From Anaerolinea sp. (GTDB taxonomy: Bacteria; Chloroflexota; Anaerolineae; SpSt-313): 36,825 nt of DNA. Under the pieces are notes generated by a model. That model did not search any database. It was not told the origin of the DNA and was given only the letters and a program-made list of their open reading frames with translations. A program made the position numbers and the translations under genes. Shown in pieces: positions 1 to 36,825 of this stretch. The stretch covers positions 1 to 36,825 of the forward strand of contig DYEI01000445.1 of the NCBI GenBank assembly GCA_020725765.1, in the 5' to 3' direction. Within the stretch, counting starts at the first letter, position 1; every line of letters starts with the position of its first letter.

Positions 1-57
1 CCACCGCGCGGCCCGCAACCCGCAATCAATGTGTGGGTCACATTAGGAGGAGAGATC

Positions 58-1161
58 GTGGCTCTGACGCAGATACAGAAACAGCGGATCCGCGAGTTCG
101 TCCCCGGTTTCAAGGAGTACCTCTCATCTGGCGGACGACAGGCCGATCTGTCGGATCGGCGGGCACGCTGCGAACTGTACGCCCAGCTCCTGTCACCTGA
201 GGGCCTCGCGCGCATGACGGAACTGGAGTTCGGTCAGGTCATCAGCTCCCTGTGGGCGAGTGAAATCTGGGGCGACAAGGGCTACCTCGTAGACAAGCTT
301 ATTGCCGATAACGGCCTGCCCAGGCTGGTGGACCAACTGAGGAACCTACTGTGGGGAAGCGACGCTCTTGCGACTCGCTACGACGCCTTCCGTGAACAGA
401 TCAGAGGGCTTGGGCCAGCCTCGACCACGGAGTTGCTCGCCTTCGTCCACCCCGACCGATGTGGCCTGTGGAACGACAAAGTGCGCAAGGCCCTGCGGGT
501 ATTGGGGTTCGGCGACAGCTTGCACATCATACGCAAGACTCGGATCAGCGGGCGGGAGTACGAGGAGTTCAACCGGCTGCTATCTGAGATAGGCAGGGAA
601 CTGGAAGATAGCGGCGTGCCTCCCCTCGATCTCCTGGGCGTCGACTACTTTCTCTTTGAGGTATGGTCTTCTGCGAAGGATGCAACACCGGGCCCCGGTA
701 ACGGGGCCAATGATTTCGATCACGAGGACATGGTTCAGCGGCTGGTAGCGATCGGTCGCTGGCTCGGGTTCGATACTGAGGTGGGGTCCCTGGTGGCCAC
801 CGCGGCGCGTGTCGACGTCATCTGGCAGGCGCGAATCGCGAACCTGGGTGTGGTGACCTATGTGTTCGAGGTCCAGCGCAGGGGCTCAGCCGATTCGCTG
901 ATTCTCAACCTGCAGCGCGCCCAGAACAACCCCAGCGTGCAGCGACTGGTGGTAGTAGCCAACGCGGACGAGATCGAGCGGGTACGGGGCGAGATCGCCA
1001 CACTGCCCGAGAGGTTCCGCAGAGCGGTGGGCTATATGGAAGTCAAAGACCTCGTTCGGGCTGGCGAACTGCTGGAGGAATTTGCTGAGATCATCGGCCG
1101 GCTCGAGCTTGTGCAGAGCCAGTTCGGGGCACGGGGGGACCGGCGCCCAGCGCAGGTCTGA
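58..1161 (+). CDS. Unrecognised protein with HhH-like and PD-(D/E)XK-like regions, partner of the downstream helicase
   Basis: A 367-residue protein that I cannot assign to a named family. GTG at 58 is preferred over the upstream in-frame GTG at 31 because AGGAGG (45-50) lies 7 nt before it. The N-terminal half is helical and includes a stretch (GLGPASTTELLAF, then WNDKVRKALRVLG, about residues 117-150) that resembles helix-hairpin-helix DNA-glycosylase-like modules. The C-terminal third reads like a restriction-endonuclease fold: an acidic residue in ARVDVIW, then a strand ending YVFEVQ, then LVVVAN. That is a D...ExQ variant of PD-(D/E)XK. No membrane segment or signal peptide is visible. 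The next gene, a PLD-SNF2 helicase, begins 43 nt downstream on the same strand, so co-expression is likely. A nuclease or DNA-recognition subunit is my inference from fold-like motifs; a non-catalytic DNA-binding partner is also possible. Confidence 0.6.
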   Translation: MALTQIQKQRIREFVPGFKEYLSSGGRQADLSDRRARCELYAQLLSPEGLARMTELEFGQVISSLWASEIWGDKGYLVDKLIADNGLPRLVDQLRNLLWGSDALATRYDAFREQIRGLGPASTTELLAFVHPDRCGLWNDKVRKALRVLGFGDSLHIIRKTRISGREYEEFNRLLSEIGRELEDSGVPPLDLLGVDYFLFEVWSSAKDATPGPGNGANDFDHEDMVQRLVAIGRWLGFDTEVGSLVATAARVDVIWQARIANLGVVTYVFEVQRRGSADSLILNLQRAQNNPSVQRLVVVANADEIERVRGEIATLPERFRRAVGYMEVKDLVRAGELLEEFAEIIGRLELVQSQFGARGDRRPAQV

Positions 1162-1204
1162 CCGGTTTGCGGCGCATGCCCCCAGGCCAGAGAGGACCTG
1201 TACC

Positions 1205-4200
1205 ATGCCCCCCTACCTCCCACCCGACTATCTGGACAACACGCCCGAGCACGGGCTTGCCGAGGCCCTGGCCGGGCTGATACTCGACTTGGGCCAGCGC
1301 CGGCTGGACGTGGCCACCGGCTTCTTCGAGCCCGGCGCCTGGCGGCTGCTCCACGAGTCCTTCCAGCATCTAGAGCGGTTCAGGCTCCTCCTCGGCAGGG
1401 AGCCAACGATCGCCGCCCCCGGTGAGGACACCTTCGACCTGCGCCAGCTCTACCGACGCCGGCTCCAGGGCGACCTGGAAGCCCTGCCCCTCGACGATGA
1501 GCACGCCACGCTGGTCAACTCGCTCCTCGCTTTCTTGCGCCGCCCCAGTGTTGAGGTGCGACTGTACCCCTCCTTCCTTCATGCCAAGGCCTACATCTTC
1601 TCGGACGTGGCCATTGTCGGCTCCAGCAACCTCACCGCGGCCGGCCTCACCCGCAAAGCCGAGCTGAACCTCGTACGCAAGGAGCACGCGGTCGCCGTGG
1701 CGCTGCGCGAGGGGTGGTTCCAGCGCTTCTGGGCCGAGGCGGACGACTACAAGGAGGAGCTGATCGCGGCGCTCGAGCAAAGCAAGTTCGGCACCGCCGC
1801 CTACAGCCCCTTCGAGGTGTTCATCAAGGCGCTCTACGAGTACTTCAAGGACCGTCTCCCCGTCATGGCACCCGAGGCGGGGATCGGCGTCGACCTGGCC
1901 TCCTTTCAGCAAGAGGGCCTGCGCGAGGCAATCCGCCTGCTGGATCGTCACCACGGCGTACTGATCGCCGACTCGGTCGGCCTCGGCAAGACCTACATCG
2001 GCATGGCCATCCTCGAGCACTATCTGCTGCGCAGGCGCCGCCGTGAACACATCCCGCGGGGCCTTGTGGTGTGCCCCGCCCAGCTCCGGGACACCGTCTG
2101 GGCGCCCAGGCTCGACGAGTTTGGCATCAAAGCTACTTTCTGCTCGATGGAGGAGATGGGGCGCCATGATTTTAACTGGCGGGCCTTTCGCGGCTACGAC
2201 CTCGTCCTGGTGGACGAGGCCCACAACTTTCGCAACCCCGGCACCCGGCGCTATGAGAACCTGAACCGTCTCATCTGCGCCGGCAGGCGCGACAAGTATG
2301 TAATACTGATGACCGCCACGCCCATCAACAACAGCATCTGGGACCTCTACCACCAGGTCATGCTCATGGCCCGCGGCTCCGAGAGCTACTACCGGGACTA
2401 TGGCATCCCCAACCTCAGGGGCTTTTTCAAGCGAGTTTCCGAGGGCTCGGCAGAGCTCTTTGACCTTCTCGAGCAGACGGCCGTGCGCCGCAGCCGCTAC
2501 GACATCAAGAAGCGCCAGGAGGGGGGCGAGCCCATTATCCTGCCCGGCAAGGGCGAGGTGCGCTTCCCCCGGCGCGAGCTGCGCACCATCCAGTACAACC
2601 TCGAAAAGACCTACCGCGGCCTCTATGAGGAGATTGCCGGCCAGATCGACAGGCTCAGCCTGGTGAGCTACAACCTCGAGCAGTTCCGCGTCGAGGCCGA
2701 CGCGGAGATCGTCGAACGCAACAACGCCCTGATCGGCATCATCAAGACCACCTTCCTCAAGCGGCTGGAGAGCTCCCTCCGCGCCTTCGAGGTCAGCGTG
2801 CAGCGCCAGGCCCGGTTCCAGCAGCGCTTCTACACCTTGCTGCAGCAAGGGCGCCTCCTCGATTCGCCCACCCATCGCCGGATCATCGCCCTCGAGGAGG
2901 CCGACGAGCCCCCAGAGGCCATCGACGAGCTGATCGCGAGCCTCCCGGAGGTCGACGCCGGCGGCTATGACCTGAAAGCCATCGGCGAGCAAGTCGCCTG
3001 CGACCTGCAGATCCTGCACGATCTGCTGGAGTGGATCGCGATCGTCCGTGACAGTGCGGGCGGCGAAGCAGGCGAGGACGCCAAGCTCGCTGCCGTCAAG
3101 GCCGAGCTGGCGGGTCCGCTCAAAGGACAGAAGGTGCTCCTCTTCACCTACTATGAGGATACGGCGAGGTATCTCTACGACGCTCTGCGGCAGGATGAGG
3201 CCTGGCTGGCCCGGGCGGGGAGGCCCACCATCGGGATCATCTCTAGCAGAAGCAACATCCGCGAGCGCGAGGAGCTCATCAAGCGCTTTGCGCCCGTCGC
3301 CAACACTGCTGGTACGGAGGAGGGCCTCGAGGAGCGGCGGCGCCTTCAGGAGACCGAGCTGCAATTGCTCATCTGCACGGACGTCCTTTCCGAAGGCCAG
3401 AACCTGCAGGACGCAGGCGTCGTCCTTAACTACGACCTGCATTGGAACCCGGTGCGGATGATCCAGCGGGCTGGGCGCATCGACCGGCTGGGCCTGCCGC
3501 CGGACCGCGATACGGTCCACATCTACAACTGCTTCCCTGAGGAAGGGCTGGAAAAGCTGCTGGGCCTGGTACAGCGCCTCCAGCAGCGCATCTTCACCAT
3601 CGACCGTACCGTCGGGCTGGACGGCTCCGTGCTGGGCGAAGCAATCCATCCCAGGTCACTCGAGGAGCTCAAGCGCATCAAGGCCGGCGAGCGTCAGGCG
3701 CTGGAAGAGCTCGAGCAGGCCGCCGAGCTCATCTCCACCGACGAGATGAAGCTCCCGCTTCTCCACTACCTGCAGATGGTCGGCGAGGAGAAGGTCAGGG
3801 AGATACCCCTCGGCATCCACAGTGGCAAGATCGGCCCAGTCCCGGGCACCTTTTTCGCCTTCCGCGCCGGTGACCGGCATTTCTGGCGCTTTTTCTCCTC
3901 CACGGGCGGCGAGCCCATCAGCGACAAGCGGCAGATCTTCCGGCTCATCAACTGCCCGCCCCATGAGCCGCGGGTCGTTCCCGAGCACGACATCTCCGAC
4001 CTGTACCACCGGGCGACCGCGGACGTCTGGCAGGAGATCACGGTGCTGCGCGCCGGGCGCAAGCTCAGGCCGCGCATGAGCGGGCTTAACAAAGAGTTCT
4101 ATGACGCACTCAACCAGTTGCAACTCTCTGATAGCGTACCCGCGGAGCTCAGGCACAGGGTGAACCGTGTGCTGCAGGCTGCCTCGCTCGCTCCCTTCCA

Positions 4201-4396
4201 GCGCGACCCAGCGCTCAAGGCCATCCGTGATGCCTTCAGGCAGACCCGTGACGTCGCCGCCCTCGCCGAGCAGCTCGACCTCTTCTTTGCCGAGAACGGC
4301 CTCTCAGCCGAGGTGAGCGAGTCCAGAATGTTAGACGAGATCCGGCAGGAAGAACTGCAGTTGGTCTGCTACGAGATTCTGGTGTCGAAGGGCTAG
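1205..4396 (+). CDS. PLD-domain SNF2-family helicase
   Basis: A 1,063-residue superfamily 2 helicase with an N-terminal phospholipase D-like domain. ATG at 1205 is chosen because AGAGAGG (1189-1195) precedes it by 9 nt. The PLD motif is HAK at residues 126-128 with GSSN at 139-142, a single HKD half-site, so a dimer would be needed for a complete active site. The helicase core follows: FQQEGL (Q-motif-like, about 234), Walker A DSVGLGKT (256-263), DEAH (337-340), TATP (370-373), a long middle insertion, then CTDVLSEGQNLQ (about 725) and QRAGRIDR (about 753). About 280 further residues lack a motif I recognise. SNF2 proteins translocate on double-stranded DNA, and PLD-like domains are often nucleases in defence and restriction systems. 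With the preceding gene it forms a candidate defence module. It is not a full DISARM, BREX or Dpd set, because no methyltransferase or other partner is present. Confidence 0.85.
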   Translation: MPPYLPPDYLDNTPEHGLAEALAGLILDLGQRRLDVATGFFEPGAWRLLHESFQHLERFRLLLGREPTIAAPGEDTFDLRQLYRRRLQGDLEALPLDDEHATLVNSLLAFLRRPSVEVRLYPSFLHAKAYIFSDVAIVGSSNLTAAGLTRKAELNLVRKEHAVAVALREGWFQRFWAEADDYKEELIAALEQSKFGTAAYSPFEVFIKALYEYFKDRLPVMAPEAGIGVDLASFQQEGLREAIRLLDRHHGVLIADSVGLGKTYIGMAILEHYLLRRRRREHIPRGLVVCPAQLRDTVWAPRLDEFGIKATFCSMEEMGRHDFNWRAFRGYDLVLVDEAHNFRNPGTRRYENLNRLICAGRRDKYVILMTATPINNSIWDLYHQVMLMARGSESYYRDYGIPNLRGFFKRVSEGSAELFDLLEQTAVRRSRYDIKKRQEGGEPIILPGKGEVRFPRRELRTIQYNLEKTYRGLYEEIAGQIDRLSLVSYNLEQFRVEADAEIVERNNALIGIIKTTFLKRLESSLRAFEVSVQRQARFQQRFYTLLQQGRLLDSPTHRRIIALEEADEPPEAIDELIASLPEVDAGGYDLKAIGEQVACDLQILHDLLEWIAIVRDSAGGEAGEDAKLAAVKAELAGPLKGQKVLLFTYYEDTARYLYDALRQDEAWLARAGRPTIGIISSRSNIREREELIKRFAPVANTAGTEEGLEERRRLQETELQLLICTDVLSEGQNLQDAGVVLNYDLHWNPVRMIQRAGRIDRLGLPPDRDTVHIYNCFPEEGLEKLLGLVQRLQQRIFTIDRTVGLDGSVLGEAIHPRSLEELKRIKAGERQALEELEQAAELISTDEMKLPLLHYLQMVGEEKVREIPLGIHSGKIGPVPGTFFAFRAGDRHFWRFFSSTGGEPISDKRQIFRLINCPPHEPRVVPEHDISDLYHRATADVWQEITVLRAGRKLRPRMSGLNKEFYDALNQLQLSDSVPAELRHRVNRVLQAASLAPFQRDPALKAIRDAFRQTRDVAALAEQLDLFFAENGLSAEVSESRMLDEIRQEELQLVCYEILVSKG

Positions 4397-6797: not shown

Positions 6798-7442
6798 TCA
6801 GCCGGCGCACCAGCGTATCCCCCGCGAAACCAACGTCCGGAAGATGGGATGGGCGAAGGCCTGATTGTCGTGCCCCAGCTCCAGGCAGAACACCCGTGCC
6901 TTCTTGTAGCGGCGGGTCCAGGCGAGGGTCCGCATGGAGCGGGGGTGCTCTGTGGTCAGGAGAATCTCGCTCCCCGGCCCGGCATCCTGCATGGCATAGG
7001 TCTCGTCGACCATATCCCACGAGGCGAGACCCTGTGTGATGGGGTGATCGGGGTTCGCGACCTCGACATGGATATGCTCGTCATGGTAGAAGCTGAACCG
7101 ACGGTCGGGGATGCCCACAATCTCCGACCAGAGCGGCCACTCGGGGAAAGCCAGGATCGCGTGATGCAGCACAAAGATGCCCTGCGCCGTCTCGCCGAGG
7201 GGCTCGAGCGCCGCCTTGATGGGACGGTCGTAGTAAGAACCCTCGCCGGTAGGCGTCTCGGTGTGCATATTGTAAAAGACCACCACGTCATAGCCCGCCC
7301 GCACCTCAGGAGGCGAGTAGGCGAAATCCTCCATATGCTGGATGTAGCAGTCCGCATCCGGTATGGAGCGGAACAGTGCATGGAACCCCAACACATCGAA
7401 GGGATGGCGCCCCGTCACCACGGCGACCCTGAGAGCTGACAT
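6798..7442 (-). CDS. ThuA-like domain protein
   Basis: About 214 residues, a complete ThuA (trehalose-utilisation-like) glutamine-amidotransferase-like fold. Recognisable parts are the opening LRVAVVTGRHPFD, the strand YDVVVFYNMH, GIFVLHHAILAFPEW, HVEVANPDHPITQGL, and the C-terminal LGHDNQAFAHPIFRTLVSRGIRW, close to the usual ThuA ending. GTG (7451), ATG (7445) and ATG (7442) are all possible starts. None has a strong Shine-Dalgarno site, because the heptamer array lies directly upstream; ATG at 7442 is used here. ThuA proteins are common in sugar-catabolic operons next to Gfo/Idh/MocA oxidoreductases, where they help 3-keto sugar metabolism, but the reaction here is not known. It is the last gene of the minus-strand sugar locus. 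Confidence 0.85.
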   Translation of the reverse strand: MSALRVAVVTGRHPFDVLGFHALFRSIPDADCYIQHMEDFAYSPPEVRAGYDVVVFYNMHTETPTGEGSYYDRPIKAALEPLGETAQGIFVLHHAILAFPEWPLWSEIVGIPDRRFSFYHDEHIHVEVANPDHPITQGLASWDMVDETYAMQDAGPGSEILLTTEHPRSMRTLAWTRRYKKARVFCLELGHDNQAFAHPIFRTLVSRGIRWCAG

Positions 7443-7448
7443 CATCTT

Positions 7449-7602
7449 CACGTCTCACGCCTCACGTTTCACGCATCACGCCTCACGCCTCACGTTTCAC
7501 GTTTCACGTCTCACGTCTCACGTCTCACGCCTCACGCCTCACGTTTCACGTTTCACGTCTCACGTCTCACGTCTCACGCCTCACGCCTCACGCCTCACGT
7601 AC
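7449..7602. repeat. Tandem heptamer array, CACGYYT x 22
   Basis: Twenty-two head-to-tail 7-bp units. All begin CACG; the last three bases are TCT, CCT or TTT, except one CAT unit (7470-7476) and the last unit, CACGTAC. The array has higher-order structure: 7491-7539 and 7540-7588 are identical 49-bp blocks (TTT, TTT, TCT, TCT, TCT, CCT, CCT). It fills the whole gap between the Gfo/Idh/MocA stop and the ThuA start, and enters both genes' ends. On the coding (minus) strand the units read as AGRCGTG or AAACGTG. There is no spacer structure, so it is not a CRISPR array. Confidence 0.95.
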
Positions 7603-8661
7603 ATACCTCTCCAGAAACTCCCGCACCCGCACCGGCTGGCCGCTGCGGCTGCTCTCGATCGCCGAGAAGATCAGGGCCACCGACTGCAGGTTATCCCAGA
7701 CGTTCGTGGGCATCGGCTCACCCCCATCCAGCCAGGCCAGGAACTGCTCCACCAGCCAGCCGTGCGCCCAGCGGGGTCGCTCGCGCAGGGGCACCGGCTC
7801 GCCCTGCCCCTCGCGCCGCGGCGGCCACTTGCGGGCAGGGTCATAGTCAAAGCGCTCGAGGGCACGGCTGTTCAGGATCAGCGTTGCACCCTCGCACTCG
7901 GCGCGGATGTACTCCTGCCCCCAGCAGTTCAGGCCCACGGCGTTGGTCTTGGCCCCCTCGTAGAAGGCTCTGGCGCCGTTCTGGAAGTGCATCATCACCA
8001 GGGCCTGCGCGTCCCCGGCGAACTCGCCCCAGTCGGGCTTCCAGGTCTGGGCGTAGATGGTATCGCAGAGCGCGCCGGCGAGGTCCGCGAGAATATCCAG
8101 GTGATGGACCGCTCCCTCGACCATCAGCGGATCGGGAATCTCGTGGCGGAACCTGCCCCAGCTCCCAAAGCGACGGCAGTCGCAGGTAAAGCGGCAGACC
8201 AGGTAATCGAGCGCGCCATAGCGCCCGGAGCGCAGCTCCTCGCGGAGCGTCGTCTTGTCCTGATCGAAGCGGTGGCTCATGGTTACGCCCATCTTTTTCC
8301 CGGCGCGGCGGACCTTCTTGGCGATGCGCACGGAGGCCTCCATCGTGTCGGCGATGGGCTTTTCCGACAGGATGTGCAGGTCGTGGGCGAGGGCGATATC
8401 GACGACCATCTCGTGCGCCGCCGGCGGCACCACAATCGTGCAGAAATCGGCCGGGTTCTCGTCAAAGGCCCGCTGGATATCGGTGTAGCACCGATCGGGG
8501 CTGAGCCCGAGGCCGGCCTGTGCATTCTCGAGCACGACGGGGTTGATGTCGACGGCGGCCACCACCTCGATGAGGCCGTCCTTCACAAAAGGAGGGAGGA
8601 TCATCTTGCACCATGCGGCGCCCATCCCTCCGGTACCGACCTGGATCATACGGTATGGCAT
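7588..8661 (-). CDS. Gfo/Idh/MocA family oxidoreductase
   Basis: A 357-residue NAD(P)-dependent sugar dehydrogenase of the Gfo/Idh/MocA family. The N-terminal Rossmann fold starts MIQVGTGGMG, the conserved EKP motif is in ILSEKPIADT, and the C-terminal domain has EGAVHHLDILADL with the conserved histidine. ATG at 8661 is chosen because AGGAG lies about 10 nt upstream and the glycine motif then starts near residue 8. A longer in-frame extension to 9057 would overlap the upstream gene and looks non-coding. The last five codons, including the stop, lie inside the heptamer array (TGA at 7588-7590), so the C-terminus VREA is repeat-encoded. It likely oxidises or reduces a sugar at C1 or C3, with the neighbouring ThuA-like protein as a functional partner. 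Confidence 0.9.
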   Translation of the reverse strand: MPYRMIQVGTGGMGAAWCKMILPPFVKDGLIEVVAAVDINPVVLENAQAGLGLSPDRCYTDIQRAFDENPADFCTIVVPPAAHEMVVDIALAHDLHILSEKPIADTMEASVRIAKKVRRAGKKMGVTMSHRFDQDKTTLREELRSGRYGALDYLVCRFTCDCRRFGSWGRFRHEIPDPLMVEGAVHHLDILADLAGALCDTIYAQTWKPDWGEFAGDAQALVMMHFQNGARAFYEGAKTNAVGLNCWGQEYIRAECEGATLILNSRALERFDYDPARKWPPRREGQGEPVPLRERPRWAHGWLVEQFLAWLDGGEPMPTNVWDNLQSVALIFSAIESSRSGQPVRVREFLERYVREA

Positions 8662-8674
8662 GGGGGTGAGTCTC

Positions 8675-9511
8675 CTAAGTCGTAGCAATGGCGATAGACT
8701 TGAATGCCCTGACCTGAGCTGAAATCGCCCGCTCGGTTGGCAGACGCTCGATGCTGGAGGCACCGAAGAATCCGACGACCTCCGGCATCCTGGGCAGAGC
8801 CTTGGCCACGCTCTCGGGCTCGTCGAACGGGCCGCCGTGACAGATGACGAGAATGTCCGGGCGAGCGGCGTGCGCGGCACGGGCAATGGCATTCGCCTTT
8901 TCGATTGCCTGGTCGAGCGTGAGAGCGACCGCTGCGCCAATGGTGCCCGACGTAGTGAGCCCCACGTGTGCCACCAGCTGGTCCGCACCAGCCTCCACCA
9001 TCGCCCTCGCCTGATCTTCATCGAACACGTAAGGCGAGGTGAAGAGGTCCAGTTCATGGGCCAGACGGATCATCTCGATCTCTTTGTCATAGCCCATACC
9101 TGTGGCCTCCAGGTTGGCCCTAAAGCTGCCGTCGATCAGCCCCACAGTCGGAAAGTTCTGGACTCCGGAGAAGCCAATCTCCCGCAGTTGCTTGAGGAAC
9201 ACCGGCATCAGCCGAAAAGGATCTGTGCCGCAGACGCCTGCGAGGACGGGCGTGTCCTTTACGACGGGCAGCACCTCAGAGGCCATCTCGACAACAATGC
9301 CGTTGGCATCGCCGTAGGGCATCAGGCCCGCCAGGGAGCCGCGGCCGGCCATACGATACCGGCCCGAGTTGTAGATGATGATGAGATCAGCGCCGCCTGC
9401 CTCGGCCATCTTGGCAGAAATGCCCGTACCTGCACCACAACCCACAATTGGCCTGCCAGCCTGCAATTGCGCGCGCAGGCGCCGGAGTATCTCGTTGCGT
9501 GGAATAGCCAT
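8675..9511 (-). CDS. Phosphoenolpyruvate hydrolase-family TIM-barrel protein
   Basis: 278 residues, recognised as the TIM-barrel domain that in longer proteins follows a UPF0261 (Tm-1-like) domain. Typical features are [44 protein letters not shown] split over residues 19-61, AGVCGTDPF, the FPTVGLIDG segment and the C-terminal [17 protein letters not shown] at 9511 has an excellent AGGAGGTGA (complement of 9518-9526) 6 nt upstream. The gene lies 123 nt below the UPF0261 gene and 13 nt above the Gfo/Idh/MocA gene. The family is annotated as PEP-hydrolase-like by similarity, with little biochemistry. Here it probably acts on a carboxylated or phosphorylated intermediate of the sugar pathway. 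Confidence 0.85.
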
Positions 9512-36685: not shown

Positions 36686-36786
36686 TAGAGCTCCGTCCGC
36701 CCCGGGCGCTAATGTGACGCATGGATATTCTGCGGAATGCGGCGCAGAGGGCGCATGCAATCCACCGAATGAATTCGGGGCTACGG

Positions 36787-36820
36787 GGCCTTCGGGCTGC
36801 CCGCGGGCAGCCCGAAGGCC
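36787..36820. repeat. Perfect 34-bp palindrome at the window edge
   Basis: GGCCTTCGGGCTGCCCG (36787-36803) is followed immediately by its exact reverse complement (36804-36820). It can form a 15-16-bp hairpin. With the smaller CCGAA-TGAA-TTCGG hairpin at about 36765-36778 it probably marks the 3' end of a minus-strand gene just outside the window. Confidence 0.65.
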
Positions 36821-36825
36821 AACCG

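Follow-up and report, generated by a model that had tools for sequence, protein, structure and literature searches.

The two genes and their surroundings on the contig

The window analysed here is the entire contig C428 with a length of 36825 bp, from a source genome assembled in 570 contigs, and carries two adjacent genes on the plus strand close to its left end. The first gene, P1 (58-1161, plus strand), encodes a protein of 367 amino acids; it starts with a GTG codon at 58, ends with its stop codon at 1161 and is preceded by a Shine-Dalgarno-like AGGAGG motif seven bases upstream of the start (45-50, plus strand), which was read directly from the sequence. The second gene, P2 (1205-4396, plus strand), codes for 1063 amino acids from an ATG at 1205 to a stop at 4396, and is separated from P1 by 43 bp. 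P1 is recognized by its open reading frame, Pfam and structural data and about 85 homologous loci, and P2 by its open reading frame, Pfam and PADLOC matches and a tree of 45 homologues. The first-pass annotation had already described two adjacent plus-strand genes at 58-4396, and both the open frames and the coordinates were confirmed.

The contig begins only 57 bp before P1, inside a dispersed repeat whose 3' end occupies positions 1-47 (plus strand) and abuts the ribosome-binding site of P1. This repeat has 34 other matches in the genome, many of which are located at contig ends, and the contig-internal copies reach further upstream than the copy in the window. The right end of the window (36708-36825) is likewise a dispersed repeat, matched 61 times in the genome, and dispersed repeats terminate many contigs of this assembly. 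As judged from their translations, the open reading frames downstream of P2 look like genes for metabolic enzymes, and no operon partner of P2 was seen among them. An aldo/keto reductase-like and an alcohol dehydrogenase-like gene follow after P2 (4504-6524) and are found in the same order in a genome of the same genus (G001, locus L131, 3806-5871), whose contig likewise breaks just within P2. The open reading frame at 7363-8685 codes for a short repeated peptide close to its N-terminus (SRLTxHVSRLT..., at about 7440-7620 of the window), suggesting that the underlying DNA is a simple tandem repeat.

Predicted domains and conserved residues of P1 and P2

The N-terminal part of P1 matches the OGG-like Pfam family PF21790 (amino acids 60-184; 235-609, plus strand) with 30.4 bits at a cut-off of 27, which places it with the OGG-related HhH fold of the HhH-GPD glycosylases. 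Beyond PF21790, no other confident Pfam family and no confident NCBIfam or PADLOC model were found for P1; a search for PF22175 (Ogg-HhH) in the P1 relatives gave no match, and a sequence search of the PDB with either P1 or the P1 profile as query returned nothing convincing. With Foldseek, a partial structural match of the N-terminal part to the 8-oxoguanine glycosylase 3n0u was obtained (TM-score of 0.53 by target). The hairpin of the HhH domain reads GLGPA (amino acids 117-121), and N139 is invariant across the family. Sequence-profile alignment with MutY-like proteins places the hairpin in the expected register in a match that is not significant, and N139 aligns with the catalytic Asp of HhH-GPD enzymes and an Ala with the catalytic Lys in a register that is taken from profile alignment and is not significant alone. 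The HhH domain of P1 appears to have lost the catalytic Lys and Asp of the glycosylases, and the corresponding activity is probably gone.

The C-terminal domain of P1 (amino acids 216-358; 703-1131, plus strand) is predicted as PD-(D/E)XK-like from its conservation and predicted structure, with D253 and E271-x-Q273 as candidate active-site residues. The AlphaFold model of P1, obtained with an alignment of 49 homologues, shows a mean pLDDT of 91.7, and the C-terminal domain modelled alone exhibits the alpha-beta-beta-beta-alpha-beta topology of the PD-(D/E)XK core. Among 50 P1 homologues, D253 is kept in 98% and E271 in 100%, and the third residue of the nuclease motif in the family is Q or H in place of K, yielding ExQ or ExH rather than ExK. 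The best Foldseek matches of this domain are mostly nucleases of the PD-(D/E)XK class (NucS, EcoT38I, BamHI, Can2/Cdn1 and the R2 retrotransposon protein), and the named top matches to P1 in a viral structure library are RecB-family, PD-(D/E)XK and restriction endonucleases. The Foldseek matches of both domains fit the expected folds, yet all their E-values are larger than 1e-3. As far as the structural model goes, P1 possesses a DNA-nuclease fold and represents a predicted PD-(D/E)XK enzyme. The copy of P1 encoded in the window carries a Gly instead of E243 and an Ala instead of G249 (codons at about 784-804), and 98% of the relatives keep the Glu and Gly residues. Because these two near-invariant residues beside the predicted nuclease site are replaced, the P1 protein of the window may be impaired or weakened.

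P2 matches the Pfam families PLDc_2, SNF2-rel_dom and Helicase_C, each above the respective cut-off, and the Pfam scan yielded neither an SRA nor a B3 match. The PLD active-site stretch consists of H126-x-K128 and G139-S-x-N142 (1580-1630, plus strand), and H126, K128, G139, S140 and N142 are present in all of the 60 homologues compared. The SNF2 core shows motifs I (GLGKT, residue 259), II (DEAH, 337) and III (TATP, 370) at 1979-2323 and motif VI (QRAGRIDR, 754-761) at 3464-3487, all on the plus strand. The GxGK, DEAH, ATP and QRxGR sequences are among the motifs conserved to 90-100% in the 60 homologues; these motifs are therefore not due to chance. Homologues that are 45-47% identical to P2 along their full length are encoded on cyanobacterial and Deinococcus plasmids. 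The first-pass annotation had assigned HhH-like and nuclease-like regions to P1 and an HxK/GSxN PLD domain with a complete SNF2 core to P2, i.e., one motor of the translocase type combined with two different nuclease folds. This assignment is borne out by the Pfam domains of both proteins, the topology of the P1 model and the near-invariant motifs of P2, and every motif position it named was correct, including the numbering of H126 and K128.

Genomic context of the two families

Relatives of P1 are encoded in Chloroflexota, several archaeal groups, Bacteroidota, Bacillota, Lentisphaerota and others, as well as on plasmids, and a close search of viral contigs for P1 relatives found none. The family is distributed broadly over archaea and bacteria and apparently has no name so far. 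Most of its genes are solitary and most occur without P2, and restriction-modification (R-M) genes are frequent neighbours. Among 41 tight same-strand upstream neighbours scanned with Pfam, there were nine matches to Methylase_S, five to Eco57I, five to N6_Mtase, three to HsdR and two to D12 methylase, and among 37 downstream neighbours eight to N6_Mtase, six to Eco57I, three to Fic and two to RhuM, the counts not being additive because the Pfam families overlap within one protein. The closest relatives in Chloroflexota adjoin housekeeping genes instead of R-M genes; those that we could recognize from their sequences include queA, dnaN and an RNase HII-like gene. A locus of Thermoflexus (L036) consists of genes for a DpdE/DrmD-like SNF2 protein and a DrmMI/IIG-like methyltransferase, followed by P1 and then by a gene for a DruE-like helicase. 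In this locus and in L250, P1 is followed by a DUF262-like gene within the same set of SNF2, methyltransferase and helicase genes, an arrangement that resembles the ARMADA group of YprA systems.

A different type of association is observed for P2. An Eco57I/TaqI_C-type adenine methyltransferase is encoded upstream on the same strand in 32 of 63 P2 loci and only downstream in ten of the 63, showing that two arrangements exist; many of the remaining loci are cut off by contig ends. In each annotated plasmid locus read, P2 is preceded by a large gene that is either annotated as a methyltransferase or left unnamed, and a profile search assigned the unnamed ones to the methyltransferase family, with weak matches for those of haloarchaea and actinobacteria. 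The methyltransferases of P2 loci show their best PADLOC matches to Type IIG models and match Eco57I, MmeI and TaqI_C in Pfam. As judged from these sequences, the methyltransferase and P2 look like an ATP-dependent R-M pair. In Microcystis and Planktothrix, the intact methyltransferase gene is followed by a second, short C-terminal tail (L126, 6307-6498, and L127, 4851-5045), and Planktothrix contains a further methyltransferase-like copy of 519 amino acids upstream of P2; these tails and copies look like scars of recognition-domain exchange.

No methyltransferase is visible on the window contig, which breaks so close upstream of P1 that the R-M context was hidden from the first-pass annotation. 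The source genome harbours exactly one methyltransferase of the P2-partner family, encoded on the separate contig C113. Beyond the methyltransferase gene, C113 runs out in a repeat that matches 61 places in the genome, including the right end of the window. Joining the two contigs via shared repeats was rejected, because the repeat at the end of C113 is this frequent and has nothing in common with those copies of the window's left-end repeat that were inspected. The operon of the window may include the methyltransferase gene of C113, but both contigs end in repeats common to dozens of other contigs.

The distance between the methyltransferase gene and P2 amounts to -208 to 56 bp in ten of the 32 loci, leaving the slot between them empty in about ten (Planktothrix counts among these only through the second methyltransferase fragment adjoining P2), whereas the remaining 22 loci have 314 to 4827 bp between the two genes. 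Since the program used for picking open reading frames favours antisense frames in GC-rich loci, only the P2 strand was considered for the slot contents, and those named were verified with Pfam. The contents comprise SMODS and SLATT_4, a CBASS pair, in Microcystis; DUF262 (a name taken from the annotation of the record) with a weak RelA/SpoT match in Deinococcus; AAA_21 and DUF4276, a PARIS-like pair, in two genomes (G398 and G112); an OLD protein with TOPRIM domain in G506; HicAB in G373; an IrrE-like peptidase with DUF4411/PIN in G541 and G422; AbiEii in Thermococcus; and ParE with RelB in G426. A further genome (G011) encodes an OLD and a UvrD protein (Gabija-like) directly upstream of P2 on a contig that ends before any methyltransferase gene. 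The slot holds unrelated defence or toxin modules in the different loci, and P1 appears to be one exchangeable payload among them. A relic of a P2 N-terminus located between the methyltransferase gene and the payload in G541 (L204, 7100-7456) is a remnant of the recombination by which the payload was inserted.

Among the P1 loci checked, P2 adjoins P1 in only one other case, L042, with the identical gene order. There, P1 lies 5 bp downstream of the C-terminal tail of a methyltransferase gene and is joined by P2 with a spacing of 0 bp; the tail is a 95-amino-acid open reading frame matching positions 1106-1149 of the 1152 residues of the Planktothrix methyltransferase (E-value of 5e-8), the remainder of which is missing, and the gene beside it presumably codes for a transposase. 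A survey of the class revealed P1 in nine, P2 in 54 and both in two of 396 genomes, a co-occurrence about equal to chance, and one of these two genomes (G422) carries P1 and P2 on different contigs. In quick trees with some long branches, a sister relationship of the window and L042 proteins was rejected both for P1 (p-AU 6e-70) and for P2 (p-AU 3e-5; 45 homologues), and the P2 protein of L042 groups with those from loci containing the PARIS-like pair, that of the window with those from loci containing OLD or OLD plus UvrD. Because a single origin of the pairing is rejected in both trees, the simplest reading of these sequences is that P1 entered the slot at least twice independently. A compact two-gene defence system, as proposed by the first-pass annotation, is not supported, given the rarity of the pair, whereas a likely role in defence against foreign DNA is retained; the conserved partner of P2 is the adenine methyltransferase, and P1 occupies the variable slot.

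Interpretation and relation to known systems

Based on domain content, conservation, operon association and the payload exchange seen in relatives, the window probably holds the 3' portion of an operon for an ATP-dependent R-M system with the order methyltransferase, variable payload slot and PLD-SNF2 protein, in which P1 is an exchangeable nuclease payload. Points against this reading are the location of the methyltransferase gene on another contig, the single further P1-P2 locus, the housekeeping neighbours of the closest Chloroflexota relatives of P1, the two residues replaced in the P1 protein of the window, the weak Foldseek E-values and the chance-level co-occurrence of P1 and P2 in the class. 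For the biochemistry, we infer a scheme in which P2 would be the restriction subunit and a separate adenine methyltransferase would carry the target-recognition domain and mark self DNA. At an unmarked site, the methyltransferase would recruit or activate P2, whose SNF2 motor would move along the DNA before its PLD domains, expected to form a dimer, cut in a manner comparable to SauUSI or Type ISP enzymes. The methyltransferase is regarded as the likely source of specificity because P2 lacks an SRA recognition domain. P1 would contribute a DNA-binding HhH domain joined to a PD-(D/E)XK nuclease and would most likely act as an independent second-line DNA nuclease, e.g., on DNA escaping P2 via modification or an anti-restriction protein, and it would spread by being carried within R-M operons. 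As a guess, P1 might be triggered when its HhH domain senses DNA that is modified or damaged.

The PLD-ATPase mechanism is proposed for P2 because of the precedent in the Type IV enzyme SauUSI, a dimer in which the ATPase drives movement along DNA before cleavage, and which shares with P2 the domain order and motifs of an N-terminal PLD domain with HxK and an SF2 motor (PMC7913695). However, SauUSI recognizes modified DNA by its own SRA domain, whereas P2 pairs with a methyltransferase. A methyltransferase, a PLD nuclease and a helicase-type ATPase also act together in the CglI and NgoAVII R-M systems (PMC4267653, PMC5737866), but there the PLD and ATPase modules are separate proteins and a B3 recognition domain is present, whereas they are fused in P2, which shows no B3 match. 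The methyltransferases of the P2 loci resemble Type IIG enzymes, yet nuclease and methyltransferase (in Type ISP also the motor) form one chain in those systems, whereas they are split in the P2 loci and the nuclease is of the PLD type. Anticodon nucleases of the PrrC/RloC type are carried in Type I R-M operons and cut tRNA. Like P1, they represent independent back-up effectors within an R-M operon, but P1 has a DNA-nuclease fold and resides in a different operon.

The best PADLOC match of P2 (1.4e-61) and of its Microcystis orthologue (3.3e-65) is C3a139, "HKD+Snf2" (PDLC01075), which shares the PLD and SNF2 architecture and is a protein model only. The Type-2 BREX-Related systems contain an N6-methyltransferase and an HKD-SNF2 helicase, and auxiliary effectors, OLD/TOPRIM among them, are embedded in their loci (Rakesh and Krishnan 2026, PMC12839542); this core and embedding are also seen in the P2 loci, and P2 qualifies as an HKD-SNF2 helicase in this sense. 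The P2 loci differ in their Eco57I/TaqI_C methyltransferase, and the defining component of BREX-Related systems is a DUF499 ATPase, to which Type 2 adds DUF3780 (PMC12839542). In ten genomes tested, DUF499 was absent or unlinked to P2, being located about 157 kb away in G012 and on other contigs or missing in the others, and this missing linkage rules out membership of the window operon in Type-2 BREX-Related systems. The source genome encodes DUF499 on contig C225 (2093-3058; L156), with a second, different SNF2 helicase a few kb away, which is a probable BREX-related system. As the first-pass annotation had stated, partners of DISARM, Dpd and Mokosh are absent from the contig: P2 scores 148 against the NCBIfam cut-off of 610 for DrmD, 68 and 17 bits against cut-offs of 500 (DpdE) and 100 (DpdK), and 109 bits against 1100 for phospholipD_antiphage, taken as the nearest model to Mokosh/PLD_Helicase, and no operon partner such as DrmA, DrmB or DrmC was seen downstream of P2.

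Other roles of P1 were considered. It seems unlikely that P1 is a specificity or accessory subunit of R-M systems, with the HhH domain aiding the methyltransferase or P2 on DNA and the PD-(D/E)XK domain being structural or regulatory. The frequent position beside HsdS, HsdM/Eco57I and HsdR genes, the ExQ/ExH motif and the altered E243 of the window protein would fit such a function, but the R-M partners are of unrelated types (I, IIG and D12), many P1 genes including plasmid copies have no R-M neighbour, and nearly all homologues keep D253 and E271. Quite unlikely appears a dedicated two-gene defence system, in which P1 would recognize and nick DNA and P2 would translocate and complete its degradation. 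The two genes are codirectional and closely spaced, both products are nuclease-like, there is a second adjacent pair in L042, and the two independent pairings could reflect a functional fit; as a general rule, this system is ruled out by the lack of conservation of the pair, P1 occurring mostly without P2, P2 with a methyltransferase and other payloads, and even the L042 pair following a methyltransferase tail. A DNA-repair enzyme combining glycosylase and nuclease and located upstream of P2 by chance is very unlikely: the OGG-like Pfam match, the partial Foldseek matches to 8-oxoguanine glycosylases and NucS and the housekeeping genes near some relatives are set against the Ala and invariant Asn at the catalytic positions (in a register not significant alone), the patchy distribution in nine of 396 genomes of the class and the R-M neighbours.

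With regard to an exchangeable payload in an R-M operon, the embedding of effectors in such loci is already known from Type-2 BREX-Related systems (PMC12839542), and back-up effectors occur in BREX and BREX-related loci; the same logic is found here in a simpler two-gene core. In the openly searchable literature, neither the simple core nor the fixed slot nor the P1 family seems to have been described. More tentatively, the operon might serve as a general docking platform, with R-M loci of Chloroflexota, Cyanobacteria, Deinococcus and Archaea swapping whole defence modules (CBASS, PARIS-like, OLD, AbiE, toxin-antitoxins and P1) in one fixed intra-operon position; each payload would then guard the R-M core as a back-up or dead-man switch, and P1 would found an undescribed family of R-M-guarding DNA nucleases. 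With the same payload captured independently in this simpler core, the dependence of individual payloads on the R-M core becomes open to testing, and the P1 family offers a high-confidence model with clear residues for mutation. If the payloads fire upon inhibition of the R-M core, these operons would provide a compact model for the assembly of defence layers.
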